Source: Dokdonella fugitiva (lineage in GTDB: Bacteria > Pseudomonadota > Gammaproteobacteria > Xanthomonadales > Rhodanobacteraceae). From it: a stretch of 64,000 bases of DNA. Every line of letters begins with the position of its first letter. The stretch's first letter is position 1. The DNA lies in the NCBI RefSeq assembly GCF_014138265.1, contig NZ_JACGXL010000004.1, forward strand, positions 310,001 through 374,000. The letters run 5' to 3'. Shown in pieces: positions 36,001 to 58,273 of this stretch. Position numbers and translations under genes: made by a program. The notes beneath the pieces were generated by a model that was given only the letters and a program-made list of their open reading frames with translations, searched no databases and was not told the DNA's origin.

Positions 36001-36128
36001 TGAAACACGGAGGACACGGAGTACACGGAGAAAAAGCGCTTCCTTGCCTTGCTTTCTCCGTGTGCTCCGTGTGCTCCGTGTTTCAATCTTCTTTTGTTTT
36101 TCCTTCGTGTCCTTCGTGTTTCAATCTT
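36001..36128. repeat. CACGGAG-type repeat cluster with a large hairpin
   Basis: 36001-36033 contains three tandem ACACGGAG-type units, and 36053-36085 is its near-exact reverse complement (33-bp arms, about 2 mismatches, 19-nt loop). A sister repeat with CCTTCGTG units follows (about 36098-36119), and GTGTTTCAATCTT occurs twice (36078-36090, 36116-36128). Sequences of this kind recur as intergenic repeats in unrelated bacteria. It is relatively AT-rich and non-coding. The rest of 35874-36149 shows nothing else. Confidence 0.75.
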
Positions 36129-49093: not shown

Positions 49094-50761
49094 CTAGCGC
49101 TTCGCCTGCGTAAGGCGCGTGGGCGCGACGCTGCGCGTCGGGCGCGAGGGCTGCGCGACCGGCGCCGCCTTGTGCACCGTCTGCATCGTCATCGCCACCG
49201 GCACGCCGTCGAAGCCGTCCTCGAAGATCGACGCCTCGGCGCTCAGCAGCGAAAGCTCCGGCGTGCGGGCGAAAGCCACGCCGAAATCCTCGAAGTGGGC
49301 CCAGTCCCCGAACGGACTCGACGGCCAGACGACCCAGGTCGAGGCCGGCACATAGCGGTCGACATGCAACGCTAGCGGCAAGGTCTGTCCCGCGACCGGC
49401 TCGATCGCGGTGAGCACGTAGGTGCCCGCCGCGAGGAGGTGACGACCCGCTGCGAAAGCGACGTCGTACGAACCTCCCTCGTAAGTGCACGCCACCGGCA
49501 CCGTCGTGTCGATGACGTCGCCGGGCACGTTGTTGACCGTATCGAACGCACGCAGGTTGAGCGTGTAGTCGAAGCCGGGACACGGCGTCGGCGTCGGCGG
49601 CATGCCGCCGTCGTCCGGCGGCAGCGACAGCATCGTGAAGTGGGCACCGCCGACGAGCAGGTCGTGCTCGAGCGTGAACGCGACGCCGAGCTCGCCACCA
49701 TCGCCGGCGCCGATGCCGAGCGATCCCGAAACGGCGCCTTCCCAGCGCGCGAGTTCGTTGCCACCGATCGTCGTGCCGGGCACGTCGACGATGTTGTTGG
49801 CGGTGTTGGTCTCGCTGCCCGACTGGTCGGACGTGAGCGCGTACTCCGTGGTCCACGCGCCGTCGCCCGAGTAGGCCGCCGCCGCACCGAACGTCAGCGG
49901 CTCGCTCGCACCGATCGCCAGGCTCGCGATCGGCGCGCTCGCCGGCACCGGGATGCCCGCCGCGCTGCCGTCGAGCGTCGGCGTGGCCGTGCCCGACACG
50001 TTGGTGAGCGTCGCGCCGCCGCCGTTCATCGCCGTTACGCCGAGCAGCGGCGTCACGTCGTAGCCGGAAGGCGCGCGCGCGTAGTCGGTCGTGAATGTCG
50101 GCGACGCGGTAGCGACGAGATCGGGCGTGTCGTCGATCACGTGGACGTCGTCGATGACCAGCAGGAACTTGTCGTTGCTGTTGTTGCGGAAGCCGATGTA
50201 CACCGTCTGGCCGGCGTAGCTCGCCAGGCTCAGCGAATGGTCCGTCCAGGCCGTCTCCTCGGCCGGCGTCGAGAACACGACGTCGCTGGTGGCCTGGTTC
50301 GCCTGCGTCGGCACGGCGCCGGTCTTCACGCGGACCTCGTAGCCGTCGCGATAATCGGGGTCGTATGCGATCGCGCGCCAGCTCAGCGTCGCGCCGCCGG
50401 TCAGCGCCACGGCCGGAGACCAGGTCCAGTCGTCCGCTTGGCCCGCGGGCGAGTACCACGACGTGCTGAACGCCGCGCACTGCGTCACGTCGTGCCCGAA
50501 GTCCTCGCGCACTTCCCAGGCGTCGTTGACGTAGGCGACCGCCCCCGCCGGCGTGCGGCCGTCGACGTTGAAGAGCAGCCAGTCGCTCGGATACGGATAG
50601 GTTCCGGCGCCGCCGCCGAACTCCTCGGTGTGGCAGCCCGGCGGCTGGGTCACGCCGATGTTGAACGGCTGGTAGAGCAGGTCCACCGCCTGGGCGGCGG
50701 GTGCGGCCACGGCGCACGTGATCGCGGCGGCGAGGATATTGCGCTTGTGCATCGACTTCAT
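49094..50761 (-). CDS. Exported protein with choice-of-anchor J-like domain and internal FEDGFDG tag
   Basis: Protein of 555 aa with a signal peptide (KRNILAAAITCAVAAPAAQA). The first domain (YNDAWEVREDF-like segment VNDAWEVREDFGHDV, then SWYSPAGQADDWTWSPAVAL and VYIGFRNNSNDKFLLVIDDV) fits the cleaved-adhesin/choice-of-anchor J fold that often binds carbohydrate. A middle CARDB-like and a last beta-sandwich domain follow. ASIFEDGFDG occurs near the end but, unlike in the other proteins, is followed by about 35 Pro/Thr/Arg-rich residues ending LTQAKR. It is upstream of and perhaps coupled to the TPR sulfotransferase. Confidence 0.8.
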   Translation of the reverse strand: MKSMHKRNILAAAITCAVAAPAAQAVDLLYQPFNIGVTQPPGCHTEEFGGGAGTYPYPSDWLLFNVDGRTPAGAVAYVNDAWEVREDFGHDVTQCAAFSTSWYSPAGQADDWTWSPAVALTGGATLSWRAIAYDPDYRDGYEVRVKTGAVPTQANQATSDVVFSTPAEETAWTDHSLSLASYAGQTVYIGFRNNSNDKFLLVIDDVHVIDDTPDLVATASPTFTTDYARAPSGYDVTPLLGVTAMNGGGATLTNVSGTATPTLDGSAAGIPVPASAPIASLAIGASEPLTFGAAAAYSGDGAWTTEYALTSDQSGSETNTANNIVDVPGTTIGGNELARWEGAVSGSLGIGAGDGGELGVAFTLEHDLLVGGAHFTMLSLPPDDGGMPPTPTPCPGFDYTLNLRAFDTVNNVPGDVIDTTVPVACTYEGGSYDVAFAAGRHLLAAGTYVLTAIEPVAGQTLPLALHVDRYVPASTWVVWPSSPFGDWAHFEDFGVAFARTPELSLLSAEASIFEDGFDGVPVAMTMQTVHKAAPVAQPSRPTRSVAPTRLTQAKR

Positions 50762-51035
50762 GGATTCCCCCTGATGGTCCTATCGACGCGCGTCCGACCA
50801 TCGACGCGCATGCGGGGTCTTTCCTGCAACAACTGAGCCATCGCGCAGGCCCTGCGGCGCGCGGCCATGCTCCCCGGCGATTGGCCAAATGTTACGCCGA
50901 CGGTCGGATCGGGCGGCACGCCGGCGTCGCGGCGATGGATCACTCATCGGATTGGAAAGCGAATCTAATCGGAACATCAAGCCTTCCGCGCCGGCGCCCG
51001 CCATTGTCGGAGTTCCCCCGAACCGGTGTCCCGCC

Positions 51036-53210
51036 ATGGCCTTCGATCATTCCGTCTTCGCCCTGCCCGCGTGCATCGCGGCTGCCGTCGCGGCGCCGGC
51101 GCACGTCGCGTCGATCCCGCCGTCGATGTCGCCCGTGCGCACCGACCTGCAGGGCGTGCATGCGCCGCGCATCACTTCCGCTGCACACGACCTCAGCCCG
51201 GCGGGCGGTGGTACCTGGAACCCGCTCGGCCCGCCGGGCGGCGACGTCGCGGTCGTCGTCGCGTCGCCGACGACGCCGTCGATCGTGCTCGCCGGCACCG
51301 CGCCCGCAGGTGGTCCGGGCGGCAGCCTGTACCGCTCGACCGACGCCGGCACGCACTGGGCGCTGGTGCCCACGCTCGCGGGCACCAGCGTGCACGACGT
51401 CGCCTGGTCGAGCGACGGCCGCGTCTACGCGGCGACCCAGGACGGCGTCTGGACCAGCGACGACGCCGGCGCCAGCTGGACGCAGCGCAACCTCGGCATC
51501 GATCCGCTCAACGACGCGACCTTCTCGCTCGCCGTCGATCCGTCGACGCCGGCAACGGTGTGGGTCGGCGTGACCGCCGCCGCGGGCTTCCAGAGCGTGA
51601 ACCTCATGCGCTCGCTCGACCGCGGCGCGAACTGGTCCGATCGCACGCCGCCGCACGCGACGCCGCTGAACGGCACCGCGATCGCGATCGATCCGCAGCA
51701 GTCGGCGACGGTCGTCGCCGCGTTCCGCGGCGACTTCGGCACCGGCGAAGTGTGGACGAGCGTCGACGGCGGCGACCACTGGCAGGACCGCAGCGCCGGC
51801 CTGCCCGGCACGCCGGTCAACGCACTCCACTACGACGGCACGCGCCTGCTCGCGGGCGGCGGCATGAACTTCGGCTCGCAGTACTTCGGCCTGTACGCAT
51901 CGACCGACCTCGGCCAGAGCTGGTCGCCGCTGCACGACGCGACGTGGCCGCTGCCGATCGTGACGGCGATCGCGGTCGATCCCGCCGATGCGCAGACGAT
52001 CGTGGTCTCGACCGACGGCACCGGCGTGCACCGCACGCGCGACGGCGGCGCGCACTGGGACCTCGGCATCGGCGGCAGCGGCGCGCTCGCCGCGCAATCG
52101 GTGCATTGGGCCGCGGCGGGTTCGCAGGCCCTGCTCGTCGGCGCGAGTGCGCTCGGCGTGTACCGCTCGGCCGATGCCGACGCGCCGCTCGTCGCGTCGT
52201 CGGACGGCATCTCGGAATTCAACCTTGTCTCGATCGCCGGCAACCCGCTCGATCCCGCCGAGGTCGCGGTCGCGTTCCAGGGCAACAACAATGGCGGCGT
52301 CATGAGCTCGACCGACGGCGGCGTGCATTGGACGATCGAGGCGCTGCCGCCGACGCGCTACAGCAAGGTCGGATGGTCGCCGTCCGGCGTGCTCTACGCG
52401 ATCTCGAGCGGGCCGTCGTCGATCGCGCCCGAAGGCCTTTACCGGCGCGAAGCCGACGCGAGCTGGACCGGACTCGGCCCGGACCAAGGGCCACTCTACG
52501 AATCCGATCTCGCCGCGCTGCGCTTCAGCGAGGTCGACCCCGACCTCATCCTGCTCGGCGGCTCCGACTTCGGCGTCGCCGGCAGCGCCGGCACGGTGTG
52601 GCGTTCAGCCGACGCGGGCCAGACCTGGGACAAGCAGTACATCGGCGACGACGGGCTCTTCATCGGCGACATCGAGATCGCGGACGACGGCAGCGACCAG
52701 GTCATGCTCGCGCCGTACACGGGCTACCAGTCGCCCGACCAGGGCGGCCTGCTGCGTTCGGATGACGGCGGCGCGAGCTGGGCGCCGGTGCTCGAGCAGT
52801 CGACCTACGTGCAGCGCCCGCACCTGTGCGGATCGATCGCCGATCCGCGCGTGTTCTACCTCGGCATCGCGAGCGGCTGGAGCAACGGCACCGTGCTGCG
52901 CAGCGACGACGCCGGTGCGAGCTGGACGCCGGCCTGGAACGGCGCGTCGATCCTCGACATCGCCTGCGACACGACCGACGGCGACACGCTCTACATCGCG
53001 CAAGGCTCCGGCGCGCGCGTCGCGCGCTCCACCGACGCCGGCGCCACGTTCACGCCGTTCGCGAGCGGCCTCGACGCGGGCGGCGCGCCGACCGAACTCG
53101 CGACGGTGCGCTCCGGCGACGACGCGCGCCTGCTGCTCGCGACGAACAAGGGCAGCTACGTCGCGACGCTCGTCGTCGGCGACGCGATCTTCGCCGACGG
53201 CTTCGAGTGA
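51036..53210 (+). CDS. Exported Asp-box beta-propeller protein with terminal FADGFE tag
   Basis: Protein of 724 aa made of many BNR/Asp-box repeats (S-x-D-x-G-x-x-W: SDDAGASWTQ, SVDGGDHWQD, STDGGVHWTI, SADAGQTWDK, SDDGGASWAP), the pattern of sortilin/VPS10 and sialidase-type propellers. No sialidase catalytic arginines were identified, so binding is more likely than hydrolysis. The N-terminus MAFDHSVFALPACIAAAVAA has a hydrophobic export core but few basic residues, so the true start may lie upstream. It ends VVGDAIFADGFE. A strong hairpin and a tandem-repeat array follow. Confidence 0.85.
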   Translation: MAFDHSVFALPACIAAAVAAPAHVASIPPSMSPVRTDLQGVHAPRITSAAHDLSPAGGGTWNPLGPPGGDVAVVVASPTTPSIVLAGTAPAGGPGGSLYRSTDAGTHWALVPTLAGTSVHDVAWSSDGRVYAATQDGVWTSDDAGASWTQRNLGIDPLNDATFSLAVDPSTPATVWVGVTAAAGFQSVNLMRSLDRGANWSDRTPPHATPLNGTAIAIDPQQSATVVAAFRGDFGTGEVWTSVDGGDHWQDRSAGLPGTPVNALHYDGTRLLAGGGMNFGSQYFGLYASTDLGQSWSPLHDATWPLPIVTAIAVDPADAQTIVVSTDGTGVHRTRDGGAHWDLGIGGSGALAAQSVHWAAAGSQALLVGASALGVYRSADADAPLVASSDGISEFNLVSIAGNPLDPAEVAVAFQGNNNGGVMSSTDGGVHWTIEALPPTRYSKVGWSPSGVLYAISSGPSSIAPEGLYRREADASWTGLGPDQGPLYESDLAALRFSEVDPDLILLGGSDFGVAGSAGTVWRSADAGQTWDKQYIGDDGLFIGDIEIADDGSDQVMLAPYTGYQSPDQGGLLRSDDGGASWAPVLEQSTYVQRPHLCGSIADPRVFYLGIASGWSNGTVLRSDDAGASWTPAWNGASILDIACDTTDGDTLYIAQGSGARVARSTDAGATFTPFASGLDAGGAPTELATVRSGDDARLLLATNKGSYVATLVVGDAIFADGFE

Positions 53211-53217
53211 TCGCGCG

Positions 53218-53243
53218 GGGCGCGGCTCTCCGGCGCCGCGCCC
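53218..53243. terminator. Strong hairpin after the Asp-box protein gene
   Basis: GGGCGCGGC and GCCGCGCCC are perfect 9-bp arms with an 8-nt loop, 8 bp after the stop codon. The next T-run (TTTTT, about 53262-53266) is too far for a classical intrinsic terminator, but the hairpin may still mark the transcript end. Confidence 0.5.
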
Positions 53244-53390
53244 TTGGCCGCAGCGATTAGGTTTTTGCGCAGCGATGCGGGATCGAGCGGCATCGATGCG
53301 CGCGGGAGGCGCGCGCGTGCGACTTCGAGGCGCAACGGCGCGGGTCGGGGAGCGCAGCGTCGGGGGTTGGAGTCGCAAGCCTGCGCCGCG

Positions 53391-53625
53391 GAGGCGCAAT
53401 GGTGCGGCTCGAAGTCGCAACGATGGGGCCTGAAGTCGCGCCGATGCCGCTCGAAGTCGCAGCGATGAGGGTTCGAAGTCGCAATGGTGCGGCTCGAAGT
53501 CGCAACGATGGGGCCTGAAGTCGCAACGATGCCGCTCGAAGTCACAGCGATGGGGGTTCGAAGTCGCAATGGTGCGGCTCGAAGTCGCAACGATGCCGCT
53601 CGAAGTCGCAGCCGTGCGCGGTGGG
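53391..53625. repeat. Tandem array of 21/22-bp units in 85-bp higher-order repeats
   Basis: At least ten units starting GAAGTCGCA or GAGGCGCA run head to tail. Four unit types recur in order A-B-C-D (21+21+21+22 = 85 bp): starts at 53391 (A'), 53411 (B), 53432 (C'), 53453 (D), 53475 (A), 53496 (B), 53517 (C), 53538 (D), 53560 (A), 53581 (C), 53602 (decayed). Degenerate units flank it (for example 53645-53665). Because 85 is not a multiple of 3, no single frame carries the repeat, so it is non-coding. The remainder of 53211-53845 shows no gene. Confidence 0.85.
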
Positions 53626-53845
53626 AGGCGCATGCAGGCGGCTTGAAGCGGGATCGATGCGCCTCGGGAGCGGATCGGAGGGCCGCGGGGGCGCCTCGCG
53701 GGACGGCGGCGGTGCGAAAGCACTCACCTCGCCCCGCGCGACAGGAGCCCGGCGACGCGGTCCCGCGTCGAGCGCGAGGCGCGGGATCGATGCCCGCGTG
53801 CGCAGGAGGCACGGCGACGCCATGCGCCGCCGCCCCCGCCCCGCG

Positions 53846-54673
53846 TCAGTCGTCGTCGCGCGGCACGTCGGTGCGGCCGCGCACGCCGCGGTGGTGGACG
53901 TCGCCCGAGCCCTTGCTGCGCAGGCTGAAGTTGCCGCCGACGTCGGACACGTCGATGTCGCCGGAGCCGAGCGATTCGACGCTGACGTCGCGGTCGACGT
54001 GACCGATCGTGACGTCGCCGGAACCGACGCTGCCGATCGCAACGCCGCCGCCGACGTTGTCGAGGCGCACGTCGCCCGAGCCGACGCGGTCGACGCGGAC
54101 GTCGCCGCGCACGTCGCGCAGGATGAGATCGCCCGACGACACGCTGCGCACCTCGACGCTGCCGACGTCGCTCGCTTCGACGTCGCCCGAGCTCAGCTTG
54201 AGGTCGAACAGGCCGGCGATCTTCGCCGCGATGAGGTCGCCCGAGCTGCCGTCGTAGCGCAGCGACGCGACCTCGCGCACCTTGGCGTCGCCCGAACCGG
54301 AGCGCACCTCGACCGCGAGCGCGGCGGGCACACGCACTTCCAGGTCGACGTAGGCGTAGCTCGACTCGAACCAGTGCCAGCCGTGCGAGCGGTCCTGGCG
54401 CGGCGTGACGGTGAGGCGGTCGCCGCTGCGCTGCTGGTCGACGCCGAGGTCGGCGAGCCAGGCCTGTTCCGAGGCGCAGGCACGGCCGCGCACCTCGACC
54501 TTGGCGAGGCCGGGCACGCCGACGATCTCGAGGTCGCTCGAGCCGATCGCGGCGGCGAACGTCTTGAGGCCCGCGGCATCGACGTCGAAGTCGTGGCGGG
54601 CGGTGAACTTGCAGTCGTTCGCCGCCGCCAACGCAGGCAGCAAGGCGAACAGGACGAGGGACAGGCGGCGCAT
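53846..54673 (-). CDS. Exported DUF4097-like beta-solenoid protein
   Basis: Protein of 275 aa with a signal peptide (MRRLSLVLFALLPALAAAND). The second half is a regular ladder of about 19-residue turns each carrying SGSGD or SSGD (for example VEVRSGSGDAKVREVASLRY, DVRVDRVGSGDVRLDNVGGG, SVGSGDVTIGHVDRDVSVES), the hallmark of DUF4097-type beta-solenoids. It ends in an acidic RTDVPRDDD. Function is unknown; it may be a surface or periplasmic scaffold. It is monocistronic, next to the tandem-repeat array. Confidence 0.82.
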   Translation of the reverse strand: MRRLSLVLFALLPALAAANDCKFTARHDFDVDAAGLKTFAAAIGSSDLEIVGVPGLAKVEVRGRACASEQAWLADLGVDQQRSGDRLTVTPRQDRSHGWHWFESSYAYVDLEVRVPAALAVEVRSGSGDAKVREVASLRYDGSSGDLIAAKIAGLFDLKLSSGDVEASDVGSVEVRSVSSGDLILRDVRGDVRVDRVGSGDVRLDNVGGGVAIGSVGSGDVTIGHVDRDVSVESLGSGDIDVSDVGGNFSLRSKGSGDVHHRGVRGRTDVPRDDD

Positions 54674-54740
54674 GCGGGCGGCTCCGTGGGGAATCCCCTG
54701 TTCGGATGCGACCGCGGGCACGAAGGTTTAAAGCCGATGC

Positions 54741-54748
54741 GCTAGCCT
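54741..54748 (+). promoter_or_regulatory. -10-like GCTAGCCT box for the nitronate monooxygenase gene
   Basis: GCTAGCCT ends 27 nt before ATG 54776, and GGAGG lies between them as the ribosome-binding site. Confidence 0.45.
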
Positions 54749-54775
54749 GTACGCCGGCCCGACCGGAGGATCCCG

Positions 54776-55804
54776 ATGCCCAGCCTGCTCGGCACCGACC
54801 TGCCGCTGATCCAGGCGCCGATGGCCGGCGTGCAAGGCAGCGCGCTCGCGCTCGCGGTGTGCGGCGCGGGCGGCCTCGGCTCGCTGCCGTGCGCGATGCT
54901 GCCGGCCGACGCGCTGCGACGCGAACTCGACGCGCTGCGCGACGGCACCTCGCGGCCCTTCAACCTCAACTTCTTCTGCCATCGTCCGCCGACCGCCGAC
55001 GAGGCGCGCGAGCAGGCGTGGCGCGACGCGCTCGCGCCGTACTACCGCGAGGCCGGCCTCGATCCGGACGCGGTACCCGCGGCGGTCTCGCGCGTGCCGT
55101 TCGACGCGCGCACCGCGCACGTCGTCGAGGCGTACCGGCCCGCGGTCGTGAGCTTCCATTTCGGCCTGCCCGCGCCCGACCTGCTCGCGCAGGTGAAGGC
55201 GTGGGGTTCGACCGTGCTCGCCTCGGCGACGACGCTCGACGAGGCGCGCTGGCTCGAGGCGCGCGGCGTCGATGCGGTGATCGCGCAGGGTCTCGAGGCG
55301 GGCGGCCATCGCGGCCATTTCCTGTCCGACGACGCCACGCGCGAAGCGGGCACGTTCGCACTGCTGCCCCAGCTCGTGCGCGCGCTGCGCGTGCCGGTGG
55401 TCGCGACCGGCGGCATCGCCGACGCGCGCGGCGTCGCCGCTGCGCTCGCGCTCGGCGCGAGCGCGGTGCAAGTAGGTACGAGCTATCTCCTGTGCGACGA
55501 AGCGACCACGCACGCGGTGCATCGCGCCGCGCTGCGCAGCGACGCGGTGGCGCATACCGCGTTGACGAACCTTTTCAGCGGCGGCCTCGCGCGCGGCATC
55601 GTCAACCGGCTCATGCGCGAGCTCGGCCCGATCAGTCCGCTCGCACCGCCGTTCCCGCTCGCCGCGGCGGCGATCGCGCCGTTGCGCGCGCACGCCGAAC
55701 GCGCGGGTCGCGGCGACTTCTCGCCGCTGTGGGCCGGGCAGGACGCGAGCGGCTGCCGCGAGATCGGCGCGGCCGAGCTCACGCGCGAGCTCGCTGGCGC
55801 CTGA
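54776..55804 (+). CDS. Nitronate monooxygenase (2-nitropropane dioxygenase family)
   Basis: FMN-dependent TIM-barrel enzyme of 342 aa that oxidises toxic nitronates such as propionate-3-nitronate. Visible: LPLIQAPMAGVQGSALALAV (FMN region), GLGSLPCAML, FNLNFFCH, VSFHFGLP with the catalytic His, DAVIAQGLEAGGHRGHFL (FMN phosphate loop), VVATGGIADARGVAAALALG and ASAVQVGTSYLLCDEA. A good GGAGG precedes the ATG. A related enoyl-reductase (FabK) is less likely given the FNLNFF and GGHRGHF motifs. Confidence 0.9.
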   Translation: MPSLLGTDLPLIQAPMAGVQGSALALAVCGAGGLGSLPCAMLPADALRRELDALRDGTSRPFNLNFFCHRPPTADEAREQAWRDALAPYYREAGLDPDAVPAAVSRVPFDARTAHVVEAYRPAVVSFHFGLPAPDLLAQVKAWGSTVLASATTLDEARWLEARGVDAVIAQGLEAGGHRGHFLSDDATREAGTFALLPQLVRALRVPVVATGGIADARGVAAALALGASAVQVGTSYLLCDEATTHAVHRAALRSDAVAHTALTNLFSGGLARGIVNRLMRELGPISPLAPPFPLAAAAIAPLRAHAERAGRGDFSPLWAGQDASGCREIGAAELTRELAGA

Positions 55805-55907
55805 GGGCCGTCCGCGGCCTCCGATGTCCGGCGCCACGACGGACGCGGGCACGTCGACGCGACGTTTCGACCTTCGTCGGACGCGCTTCACGCGCGCGCC
55901 GCACGCC

Positions 55908-55915
55908 GCTACGCT
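55908..55915 (+). promoter_or_regulatory. -10-like GCTACGCT box giving a leaderless TPR-regulator mRNA
   Basis: GCTACGCT ends 6 nt before the ATG at 55922, so the predicted start site is the A of the start codon. No Shine-Dalgarno sequence is present. Confidence 0.4.
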
Positions 55916-55921
55916 GCGGCG

Positions 55922-58273
55922 ATGACCCGCACGTTCCTGCGCTTCGGCGACGACCGCATCGACATCGCCGCGCGCGAACTCTGGCGCGGCGACCGCCGCA
56001 TCGACCTGCCGCCGACGGTGTTCGACTGCATCGCCTACCTCGCGACGCACCGCGACCGCGCGGTCGGTCGCGACGAACTCGTCGCCGCAGTGTGGGGCAA
56101 GACCGCGGTGAGCGACACGATGCTCGGCAAGGCGATCCTCGCCGCGCGTCGTGCGATCGGCGACACCGCCGAGGCGCAGGCGATCCTGCGCACGGTGCCG
56201 CGCTACGGTTACCGCTGGGTCGCGCCGACCGAGGAGGTCGACGCCGGCGCCGCCGCTGCGACGCCGCCCGCAGTCGCGCAGGCGCCATCGCCGGGCGCCA
56301 TGGCGCCTGTCGCAGCACCCACGCGCCGCCACGGACTCGCAGCGCTCGTCGCCGCCGTCGCGATCGGGCTCGCGCTCGCCACCGGCTGGTTCGCCGCGCG
56401 CCATGCCCGCGAAGCCGACGCGCCGCGCGCCGACGCCGCCGCCCCCGCGCGCGGCGACGCGATCGCGGTGCTGCCCGCCGACGTGCTCGCCGGCAGCGAC
56501 GACGAATGGCTGCGCCTCGGCCTCATGGATCTGCTCGCGACGCGCCTGCGCGCACATGGCGTCGCGGTGATGCCGAGCGACAGCGTCGTGCGCGTCGTCG
56601 CCGGCAGCCGCGGCAGCGACGAGGCCGCGCAACGCCTGTCCGGTTCCGCCGCGCTGCGTTCGCTCGTGCTGCCCGCGGTGCGCAGGTCGGGCCACGACTG
56701 GGTCGTGCGCGCCGAGCTCGCCGACGTCGGCGGCGCGCGACGCGCGGTGCAGGCCGAGGCCGACAACCCGATCGCCGCGACCGATCGCGCCGCGCAGCAG
56801 CTGCTCGCGCTGCTCGGTCGGGCGCAGGCCGGCGACGCACCGCCCGACGCCGACATCGGCCTGACCGAGCTGCTGCAGCGCACCGACGCCGCGCGCCTCG
56901 CCGAGAACCTCGAGCTCGCGCGTTCGCTGATCGAGCACGCGCCGCCCGCGCTGCGCGACCTGCCGGAAGTGCGCGAACGCGCGGTCCGCATCGACCTGCG
57001 CGCAGGGCGCTTCGACGCCGCGCGCACGGCGATCGCCGCGCTGCTCGAACGCGTGACGGCCGAGTCCGATCCGGTCATGCACGCGCGCCTGCTCGAGAAC
57101 CTCTGCGTCGCCGACCTGCGCAGCGGCCGCCTGCCCGACGCACGCCGCGCCTGCGACGCGGCGATCGGCCTGCTCGACGGCCGCGGCGAGCCGATCGCGC
57201 TCGGCCGCGCCTACAACGACCGTGGCATCCTCGAAGCGCGCGAAGGCCACGCCGATGCAGCACTCGCCGACTTCTCGCGTTCGCGCGTCGCGCTCACGCT
57301 CGGCGGCGACCCGCTGCTGCTCGCCCAGCTCGACGGCAACGAGAGCACGGTGCAGATGGCGCACGGGCGCCCGGCCGAGGCGTTGCCGACGCTCGTGCGC
57401 GCGGGCGAGACGTTCCGCCGCTTCGGCATGGTCAACGAGTTCATCACCTCGATCGTCAACCAGATCGGTTCGCACCTCATGCTGCTGCAGCCGCTCGACG
57501 CGCTGAAGGCGAGCGACGCCGGCTGGGCCGAGCACGCGCGCATCACCGACCCGCAGGTGCGCAGCGCGTTCGAAGCCGCGCGCGCGGACACGCTCGCGGC
57601 GAACGGGCGCATCGCCGAGGCGCGCGCCGTGCTCGACGCACTGATCCACCGCACCGACCCGCCGGTCGATGCGGCGCAAGTAGGCCACGCACGCGCGATC
57701 GAAGCGCGCCTCGACCTCGCGCTCGGCGACGCGTCGACCGCCGCCGTGCTCGCGCGCGACGCGGTCGATGCGCTCGACGGTGCCGGCGACGAGGCCGACC
57801 GCGCGGATGCGTGGCTCACGCTCGTGCGTGCGCTGCACGCGGGCGAGGCGACCGCGGCGACGACGCAGTCGGTGGCGTTCGCGACCTGGGCCAAGGACAC
57901 CGACGACCCGCGCGTGCGCGTGCGGGTCGAACTCGCGCGCGCCGCGACCGCGGCCGACGCCGGCACGGCGAGCGCCGCGTTCGACGCCGCGCTCGCCGGC
58001 GTCGACGGGCGCAGCGAACTCGTCGCCGACGTCGCGACCGCGTACGGCAACGACCTGATCGCCGCAGGCCGGCTCGACGCCGCCGCGGTCGTCGCCGGTC
58101 GCGTCGCTCGCGCGGCCGAGCAGGACTTCGACTGCGCCCTGCTGCAGGTGCGGCTGTACCGCGCGCTCGGCCAGGCGTCGGCCTGGCGCGCCGCGCTCGC
58201 GCACGCACGCGAACTCGCCGGCGAACGACCGATTCCGGAGTCGCTGCAACGACTTGCACCCGCCGCGGACTGA
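55922..58273 (+). CDS. CadC-like membrane transcriptional regulator with TPR domain
   Basis: Protein of 783 aa. An OmpR/PhoB-type winged helix occupies about 1-100 (LRFGDDRIDIAARELWRGDR, LVAAVWGKTAVSDTMLGKAI, and VPRYGYRWVAP, the closing wing). A Pro/Ala linker leads to one membrane helix (GLAALVAAVAIGLALATGWF, about 140-160). The remaining periplasmic part is TPR-like helices. The architecture is that of CadC/ToxR-type one-component regulators that sense outside the membrane and bind DNA inside. Targets are unknown; the adjacent exported beta-helix gene is a candidate. Confidence 0.86.
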   Translation: MTRTFLRFGDDRIDIAARELWRGDRRIDLPPTVFDCIAYLATHRDRAVGRDELVAAVWGKTAVSDTMLGKAILAARRAIGDTAEAQAILRTVPRYGYRWVAPTEEVDAGAAAATPPAVAQAPSPGAMAPVAAPTRRHGLAALVAAVAIGLALATGWFAARHAREADAPRADAAAPARGDAIAVLPADVLAGSDDEWLRLGLMDLLATRLRAHGVAVMPSDSVVRVVAGSRGSDEAAQRLSGSAALRSLVLPAVRRSGHDWVVRAELADVGGARRAVQAEADNPIAATDRAAQQLLALLGRAQAGDAPPDADIGLTELLQRTDAARLAENLELARSLIEHAPPALRDLPEVRERAVRIDLRAGRFDAARTAIAALLERVTAESDPVMHARLLENLCVADLRSGRLPDARRACDAAIGLLDGRGEPIALGRAYNDRGILEAREGHADAALADFSRSRVALTLGGDPLLLAQLDGNESTVQMAHGRPAEALPTLVRAGETFRRFGMVNEFITSIVNQIGSHLMLLQPLDALKASDAGWAEHARITDPQVRSAFEAARADTLAANGRIAEARAVLDALIHRTDPPVDAAQVGHARAIEARLDLALGDASTAAVLARDAVDALDGAGDEADRADAWLTLVRALHAGEATAATTQSVAFATWAKDTDDPRVRVRVELARAATAADAGTASAAFDAALAGVDGRSELVADVATAYGNDLIAAGRLDAAAVVAGRVARAAEQDFDCALLQVRLYRALGQASAWRAALAHARELAGERPIPESLQRLAPAAD

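Follow-up and report, generated by a model that had tools for sequence, protein, structure and literature searches.

In Dokdonella fugitiva a tandem array of 21- and 22-bp units lies between the 3' ends of two convergent genes, and it raises the question of where such an intergenic repeat comes from and what it might do. The first-pass annotation of the window, by which we mean the whole 64,000-nucleotide stretch that was analyzed, had offered three candidates for this array: a protein-binding array, a structured RNA or a simple satellite. The first of these fits our results best. The explanation that we favor, by a little more than even chances, is that the window array is an orphan copy of the array half of a two-part module made of a gene and an array. 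Such an array would probably act as a platform on which a protein binds, the module's own product being the likeliest candidate.

The anatomy of the array is regular (Table 1). TRF called a period of 85 bp over the young core (2.6 copies, 91% matches, score 375) and also a period of 21 bp (10.2 copies), and the first two 85-bp copies are identical at 79 of 85 bases. Segmentation of the minus strand, from 53674 down to 53272, yielded 18 units plus one within a 43-bp step. These two analyses bear out the 21/22-bp array with an 85-bp superperiod that had been described; the units on both sides are indeed decayed, which supports the proposed expansion and erosion, and the array is longer than first described. 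The 22-mers lie at 53632-53611, 53568-53547 and 53483-53462, with a fourth somewhere within the 43-bp step at 53377-53335. On the minus strand the unit approximates TGCGACT-TCG-AGCCGCA-TCGC, that is, a heptamer, a 3-base spacer, an inverted heptamer and a 4-base spacer (7+3+7+4), so that each helical turn carries one heptamer and the orientation flips at every step of 10-11 bp. The five related arrays contain ten 22-mers, not all of independent descent; in every one the second half-site matches better when shifted one base onward, and the extra base therefore sits between the half-sites. Within the 64-kb window, period 21 was the best period (of 15-30) with z>6 only at this array (z 10.5). Its contiguous 21/22-mers have no unique spacers, so the CRISPR arrangement of direct repeats and unique spacers is not seen here. 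Other repeats were noticed in the window: a pair of short tandem arrays of 9-bp units, 25 bp apart at 36005-36081, whose units ACACGGAGG and CTCCGTGTG are near reverse complements of each other, and period-57 repeats at 53957-54108 in the DUF4097 gene, as expected of its repeated strands.

Table 1. Positions, in window coordinates, of the array, its parts and the two genes that flank it.
Feature	Position	Strand
Upstream convergent gene, BNR/sortilin-type repeat protein, outside the module	50889..53210	+
Downstream convergent gene, DUF4097 'toastrack' protein, probably exported, outside the module	53846..54721	-
Whole array, 19 units of 21 or 22 bp	53272..53674	-
Young core, 85-bp higher-order period (21+21+21+22)	53395..53614	.
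85-bp copy 1	53389..53473	.
85-bp copy 2	53474..53558	.
Copy 3, short by one unit	53559..53622	.
Distal part of the window array, aligning with the C6 array at 77%	53491..53715	-
Stretch aligning with the C8 array at 74%	53441-53709	

Related arrays were sought in the same genome, whose contigs we take to be chromosomal from their size, by DNA searches with the window array and the array on contig C6, and with a model (R1) built from 26 unit triplets. Four arrays of the 21-bp type were found: the window array (on C4) and those on C1, C6 and C8. All 38 R1 matches with E<=0.01 fall in these four (36 of 8889 first-look candidates scored). The C6 and C8 arrays are 76% identical over 390 bp with unit-by-unit correspondence, and the distal array end is equivalent in the window, C6 and C8 arrays. 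The correspondence extends to the array on contig C11 of D. fugitiva A3, in which the 22-mers occupy places identical to those in C6 and C8. The window array is homologous to the C8 array; that these arrays match each other's reverse complement is due to their dyads. The C1 array is a separate expansion of its own, a run of near-identical 21-mers. A further DNA match in the genome was seen at C6:225322-225397 (E 1.2e-5), with weaker ones down to E 0.08; two such stretches, at C6:225322 (L076) and C1:139465 (L077), had no R1 match at E<=1 and were left out of the array set. A dispersed repeat with CTCTCCCGCTCGCGGGAGAGG adjoins the distal end of the C6 and C8 arrays (about 1776-1849 in L010; about 1636-1700 and 1822-1880 in L009), and none was seen beside the window array. 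Beyond this genome, the C6 array, searched as DNA, matched at E<=0.001 in only 2 of the 16 genus genomes, its own among them. R1 matched 38 of 148 relatives at E<=0.01, strongly only in G000 and G001 (the latter being D. fugitiva A3); the weak matches were taken as chance, except those beside the gene family described below (G001 C1, G063). An exact scan of a genome contig collection, which possibly lacks the D. fugitiva genome itself, with a degenerate 30-mer returned nothing.

The C8 array abuts a gene for a protein of about 155 amino acids, and in D. fugitiva A3 an orthologous gene (95%) abuts the orthologous C11 array. The gene is present in 8 copies in the D. fugitiva genome, in 11 of 117 family genomes and in 2 of 398 genomes drawn from the phylum (own included in both counts; at most nine candidates scored per genome in the latter). 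An AlphaFold model of the protein (mean pLDDT 87.9) consists entirely of helices, and the mean net charge is near zero. Among 63 members there was no NCBIfam match and no confident Pfam match (2 of the 63 touch the TetR C-terminal model, best E 0.0022), no more than two members were hit by PADLOC models, and PHROG matches were weak and confined to two of the three proteins scanned. The identities that single members suggested in PADLOC, PHROG and Pfam were weak and inconsistent, and we rejected them. Foldseek against the PDB gave 17 matches, none with E<=0.001 (best E 1.5), and a recognizable DNA-binding domain was found by none of the Pfam, NCBIfam and PDB-fold searches. The most conserved motif of the protein, which presumably resembles a widespread hypothetical family outside Proteobacteria, is nearly invariant although the array units differ.

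Three observations concern the surroundings of the module gene. About 110 bp upstream of it (about 2861-2970 in L009) are conserved among several paralogues compared and perhaps represent a regulatory leader. The terminator hairpin of the gene resembles a C8-type unit (L009 2345-2365, L091 1445-1467, L096 1992-2014), also in paralogues that carry other array types. Finally, two paralogous modules of the D. fugitiva genome (L096 versus L099 1366-2418) share an 84% match along 1.05 kb that takes in leader, gene and array, which indicates the size of the duplicated unit.

The linkage of gene and array was examined at 80 loci of the gene family from named public records, kept from 205 confirmed loci and spanning Lysobacteraceae, Rhodanobacter, Aquabacterium, Ralstonia, Zoogloea, Accumulibacter and others. 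We scanned for autocorrelation at periods 14-40, called an array strong at z>6, and used the distal flanks of the same 80 loci as controls. In the 900 bp downstream of the gene z exceeded 6 at 38 of 80 loci, and in 38 of 38 the period was 21. Narrowing to 600 bp left 37 of 80 loci above z 6, all of them at period 21, compared to a single case among 454 in six distal 600-bp blocks (0/80, 0/79 and 1/74 further downstream; 0/76, 0/73 and 0/72 further upstream); four distal blocks show periods of 15 or 18. Within 600 bp upstream, period 21 was seen at 4 of 77 loci and period 22 at one. At a looser cut-off an array is present at 48 of 80 loci (42 downstream, 6 upstream) and absent from 32. The downstream arrays that were fitted hold 8-26 units (median 13.5), and the step is mostly constant: 49 arrays contain 598 steps of 21 bp, 35 of 22, seven of 42, three of 41, two of 43 and one each of 20 and 23. 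The downstream array of L214, which is 805 bp away, was dropped from the step, side, frame and Mantel counts and the upstream array of L219 from the side and Mantel counts, and both were kept in the dyad count of 50.

No neighboring gene is common to more than 7 of the 80 loci once clusters that seem to overlap the gene are set aside; the three largest neighbor clusters (80, 79 and 63 loci) look like out-of-frame ORFs lying across the gene or array. Such changing company, the many paralogues in one genome, the existence of gene-less array copies and the patchy spread through family and phylum would also suit a recombination or mobility end, in which the array, much like an attachment site, is where the gene cassette, or the array alone, enters or leaves the DNA. 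We regard this as improbable: the example sequences of the 25 largest neighbor clusters include no recombinase, and searches of plasmid, phage and viral collections did not turn up the module gene.

At the window, the array has the 21-bp period and the homology to a gene-linked array, and no module gene or gene remnant was found anywhere in the window. The two genes beside the array are unrelated to the module. The downstream one has a signal-like start visible in its sequence, and its DUF4097 product is probably exported; homologues occur in 13 of 16 genus genomes (own included). When 15 of their 3' flanks were scanned (from 16 matches, window included), period 21 was the best period above z 4 only in the window's flank, and D. 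fugitiva A3 carries other sequence at this flank, with no array beside its DUF4097 gene. Among the flanks scanned the array is limited to the window's, and it has no module gene; we therefore consider it a lineage-specific orphan copy. As one part of the favored explanation, and with the same slight lean toward it, the window array would be a stray, gene-less copy of the array half of the module that has recently expanded. On the other side of the array, the strong terminator-like hairpin that had been reported after the upstream gene proved only half right: the hairpin is stable (-34.5 kcal/mol, z -2.05; 7 of 200 shuffles equally good), and it lacks a T-run and was not called by a terminator scan.

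The unit sequence differs among loci and even among paralogues of one genome, and what most arrays share is a dyad: it is significant at p<0.01 in 37 of 50 fitted arrays and absent at that level in 13. In the D. fugitiva genome, 5 of the 8 gene copies have an array with z21>=5 (C8, C5a, C1b, C1a and C5b); their consensus units differ, and all are dyadic (p 0.003, 0.003, 0.007, 0.003 and 0.003, respectively). The remaining copies have a weak array or none: C8b (z 4.0), C6:192632 (2.7) and C3 (3.2).

These data bear on the satellite candidate, according to which a chance 21-bp duplication grew and eroded through slippage and has no function. This candidate accounts well for the recent 85-bp expansion of the window core, for the separate expansion of near-identical 21-mers on C1 and for a window copy that is lineage-specific and lies among unrelated genes. 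However, slippage does not predict one period at 37 of 80 gene-family loci versus 1 of 454 distal blocks, nor the palindromic consensus seen in units of unrelated sequence, nor 22-mers kept at identical places in the C8 and D. fugitiva A3 arrays of two species. As an account of the whole we therefore judge the satellite unlikely, and for the orphan window copy taken alone it is quite possible.

Palindromic units could also belong to a structured RNA, the array being transcribed as a chain of small hairpins like those of RNA antitoxins. If so, the two halves of the palindrome should covary. In arrays with a dyad score of 0.40 or more, pairs between the halves numbered 2074 against 2088 expected on one axis (z -0.74) and 2044 against 2029 on the other (z 0.77), whereas z reached 4.1-4.8 in our power simulation when 5% of broken pairs were compensated. 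The halves vary independently, and most arrays thus behave as half-sites on duplex DNA and not as RNA hairpins. In agreement with this, 37 good-dyad arrays balance G.U against A.C (640 versus 635 downstream, 73 versus 58 upstream), with 19 arrays leaning one way and 17 the other. The 13 weak-dyad arrays, which were left out of this pooled count, speak for RNA: in 10 of them G.U exceeds A.C on the gene strand, with a strong lean (G.U:A.C) in L140 (60:1), L184 (45:1), L151 (29:1) and L195 (24:0). Against it, two 85-nt stretches taken from the window array gave folds no more stable than those of their shuffles, whichever strand was used (z -1.33 to 0.02), 18 of the 35 gene-to-array gaps tested contain a terminator-like hairpin by a loose rule (5 after one shuffle), and the only Rfam match over window 50000-57000 is a chance one outside the array (E 0.53). 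The balance points to half-sites on duplex DNA for most arrays, and a structured RNA, which these results disfavor, seems to us quite improbable.

The arrays might instead encode heptapeptide repeats, since 21 bp equal seven codons and most steps are 21. The downstream arrays of 42 loci contain fewer stop codons than three null models: only 1 of 42 arrays has no open frame, whereas the reversed string gives 8 of 42 and base shuffling an expectation of 20, and the mean number of open frames is 2.40 versus 1.43 with unit columns permuted. A frame-breaking step of 22 or 43 bp, however, occurs in 24 of 49 arrays, and such arrays are about as open as the others (2.29 versus 2.52 frames). Substitutions between the C8 and D. 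fugitiva A3 arrays are spread evenly over codon positions (39, 37 and 35, of 114 each), and sense and antisense are about equally open (1.12 versus 1.29). The HRCDFEP-like and LEVATM-like translations that had been called misleading are present in the window sequence. The non-coding assignment stands, with the depletion of stop codons in gene-linked arrays as a reservation, and we give a coding role very little credence.

Loci whose proteins are more alike also have more similar units (Mantel r 0.40, p 0.0005), as calculated for 41 of the 50 arrays because alignment A5 holds 63 of the 80 proteins and the L214 and L219 rows were dropped. This indicates that gene and array are inherited together, a correlation that is partly expected of any linked pair.

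In the explanation that we favor, the module consists of a gene for the all-helical protein of about 155 amino acids and a tandem 21-bp array, usually 3' of the gene, whose units are mostly palindromic. Each unit would be a duplex-DNA operator with two inverted half-sites; with half-sites 10-11 bp apart, all would lie on one helical face, and a dimeric protein could load side by side as a filament or platform. Duplex recognition is supported by the independent halves; that a protein binds the array is what we infer from the sequence pattern. The likeliest ligand would be the module's own protein, with the unit sequence as its private address, and the outcome may be silencing, anchoring or segregating DNA, or a sponge-like autoregulation. 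The 85-bp super-repeat of the window copy would have arisen when four units underwent slipped or unequal recombination. Several observations weigh against a platform of this kind: the protein has no recognizable DNA-binding domain and a mean net charge near zero, its conserved motif hardly varies while the units differ, 13 of 50 arrays lack a dyad at p<0.01, 32 of 80 loci have no array even at the looser cut-off, only 5 of the 8 D. fugitiva gene copies have an array with z21>=5, 10 of 13 weak-dyad arrays lean to G.U, and the window copy has neither gene nor remnant.

Known systems offer partial parallels. ParR-parC plasmid centromeres pair a short protein gene with helix-phased tandem binding sites that suit a filament along one DNA face, and they comprise a ribbon-helix-helix (RHH) protein, which binds the repeats and segregates DNA, and a motor gene. 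The module likewise combines a small protein gene with a helix-phased tandem array suited to a one-face filament; in contrast, it was not found on plasmids, its units are 21-bp palindromes of locus-specific sequence, its 63 members have no RHH or motor Pfam match, no motor gene recurs, and no partner gene of any kind is shared by more than 7 of 80 loci. Replication iterons are direct repeats, each about two helical turns long, that accompany a Rep gene at plasmid origins. Module sites are also in tandem at about two helical turns, but they are mostly palindromes, the C8 protein has no plasmid match, and the 63 members match no Rep family. The module may nonetheless work by analogy to ParR-parC or iterons. 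REP/BIME elements, which accompany RAYT transposases, are GC-rich intergenic palindromes, as are the module units. The latter, however, form contiguous 21-bp tandem arrays at four places in the genome and go with another gene family, and the sole PF01797 (Y1_Tnp) gene found is on C3, whereas the arrays are on C1, C4, C6 and C8. In type III toxin-antitoxin systems, tandem RNA repeats lie upstream of a gene for a ToxN-family endoribonuclease. The module's tandem repeats adjoin a small protein gene as well, but the array is mostly 3' of it (42 of 48 loci), its halves do not covary, and none of 63 module proteins matches ToxN (Pfam, E<=0.01). The literature searched, which covers few subscription journals, contained no description of this pair of gene and 21-bp array. 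In our best explanation the module is undescribed; by the features tested, it falls outside CRISPR, REP/RAYT, type III toxin-antitoxin systems, ParR-parC and iterons.

A wider proposal, which we make tentatively and at rather less than even chances, is that the modules form a new nucleoprotein system: diversifying small helical proteins, with several paralogues per genome, would each use a private palindromic 21-bp array to build filaments on one helical face that mark or organize chromosomal sites, and arrays would also spread gene-less, recruiting the protein to further sites, of which the window would be one. If true, this would place a protein family without recognized relative and a type of array not described in the literature searched side by side, where both can be tested together. 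The units vary by locus while the period and mostly the dyad are kept, a natural experiment on how a protein and its repeated DNA address evolve in step. One kind of orphan 'satellite' between bacterial genes would then have an explanation as well.
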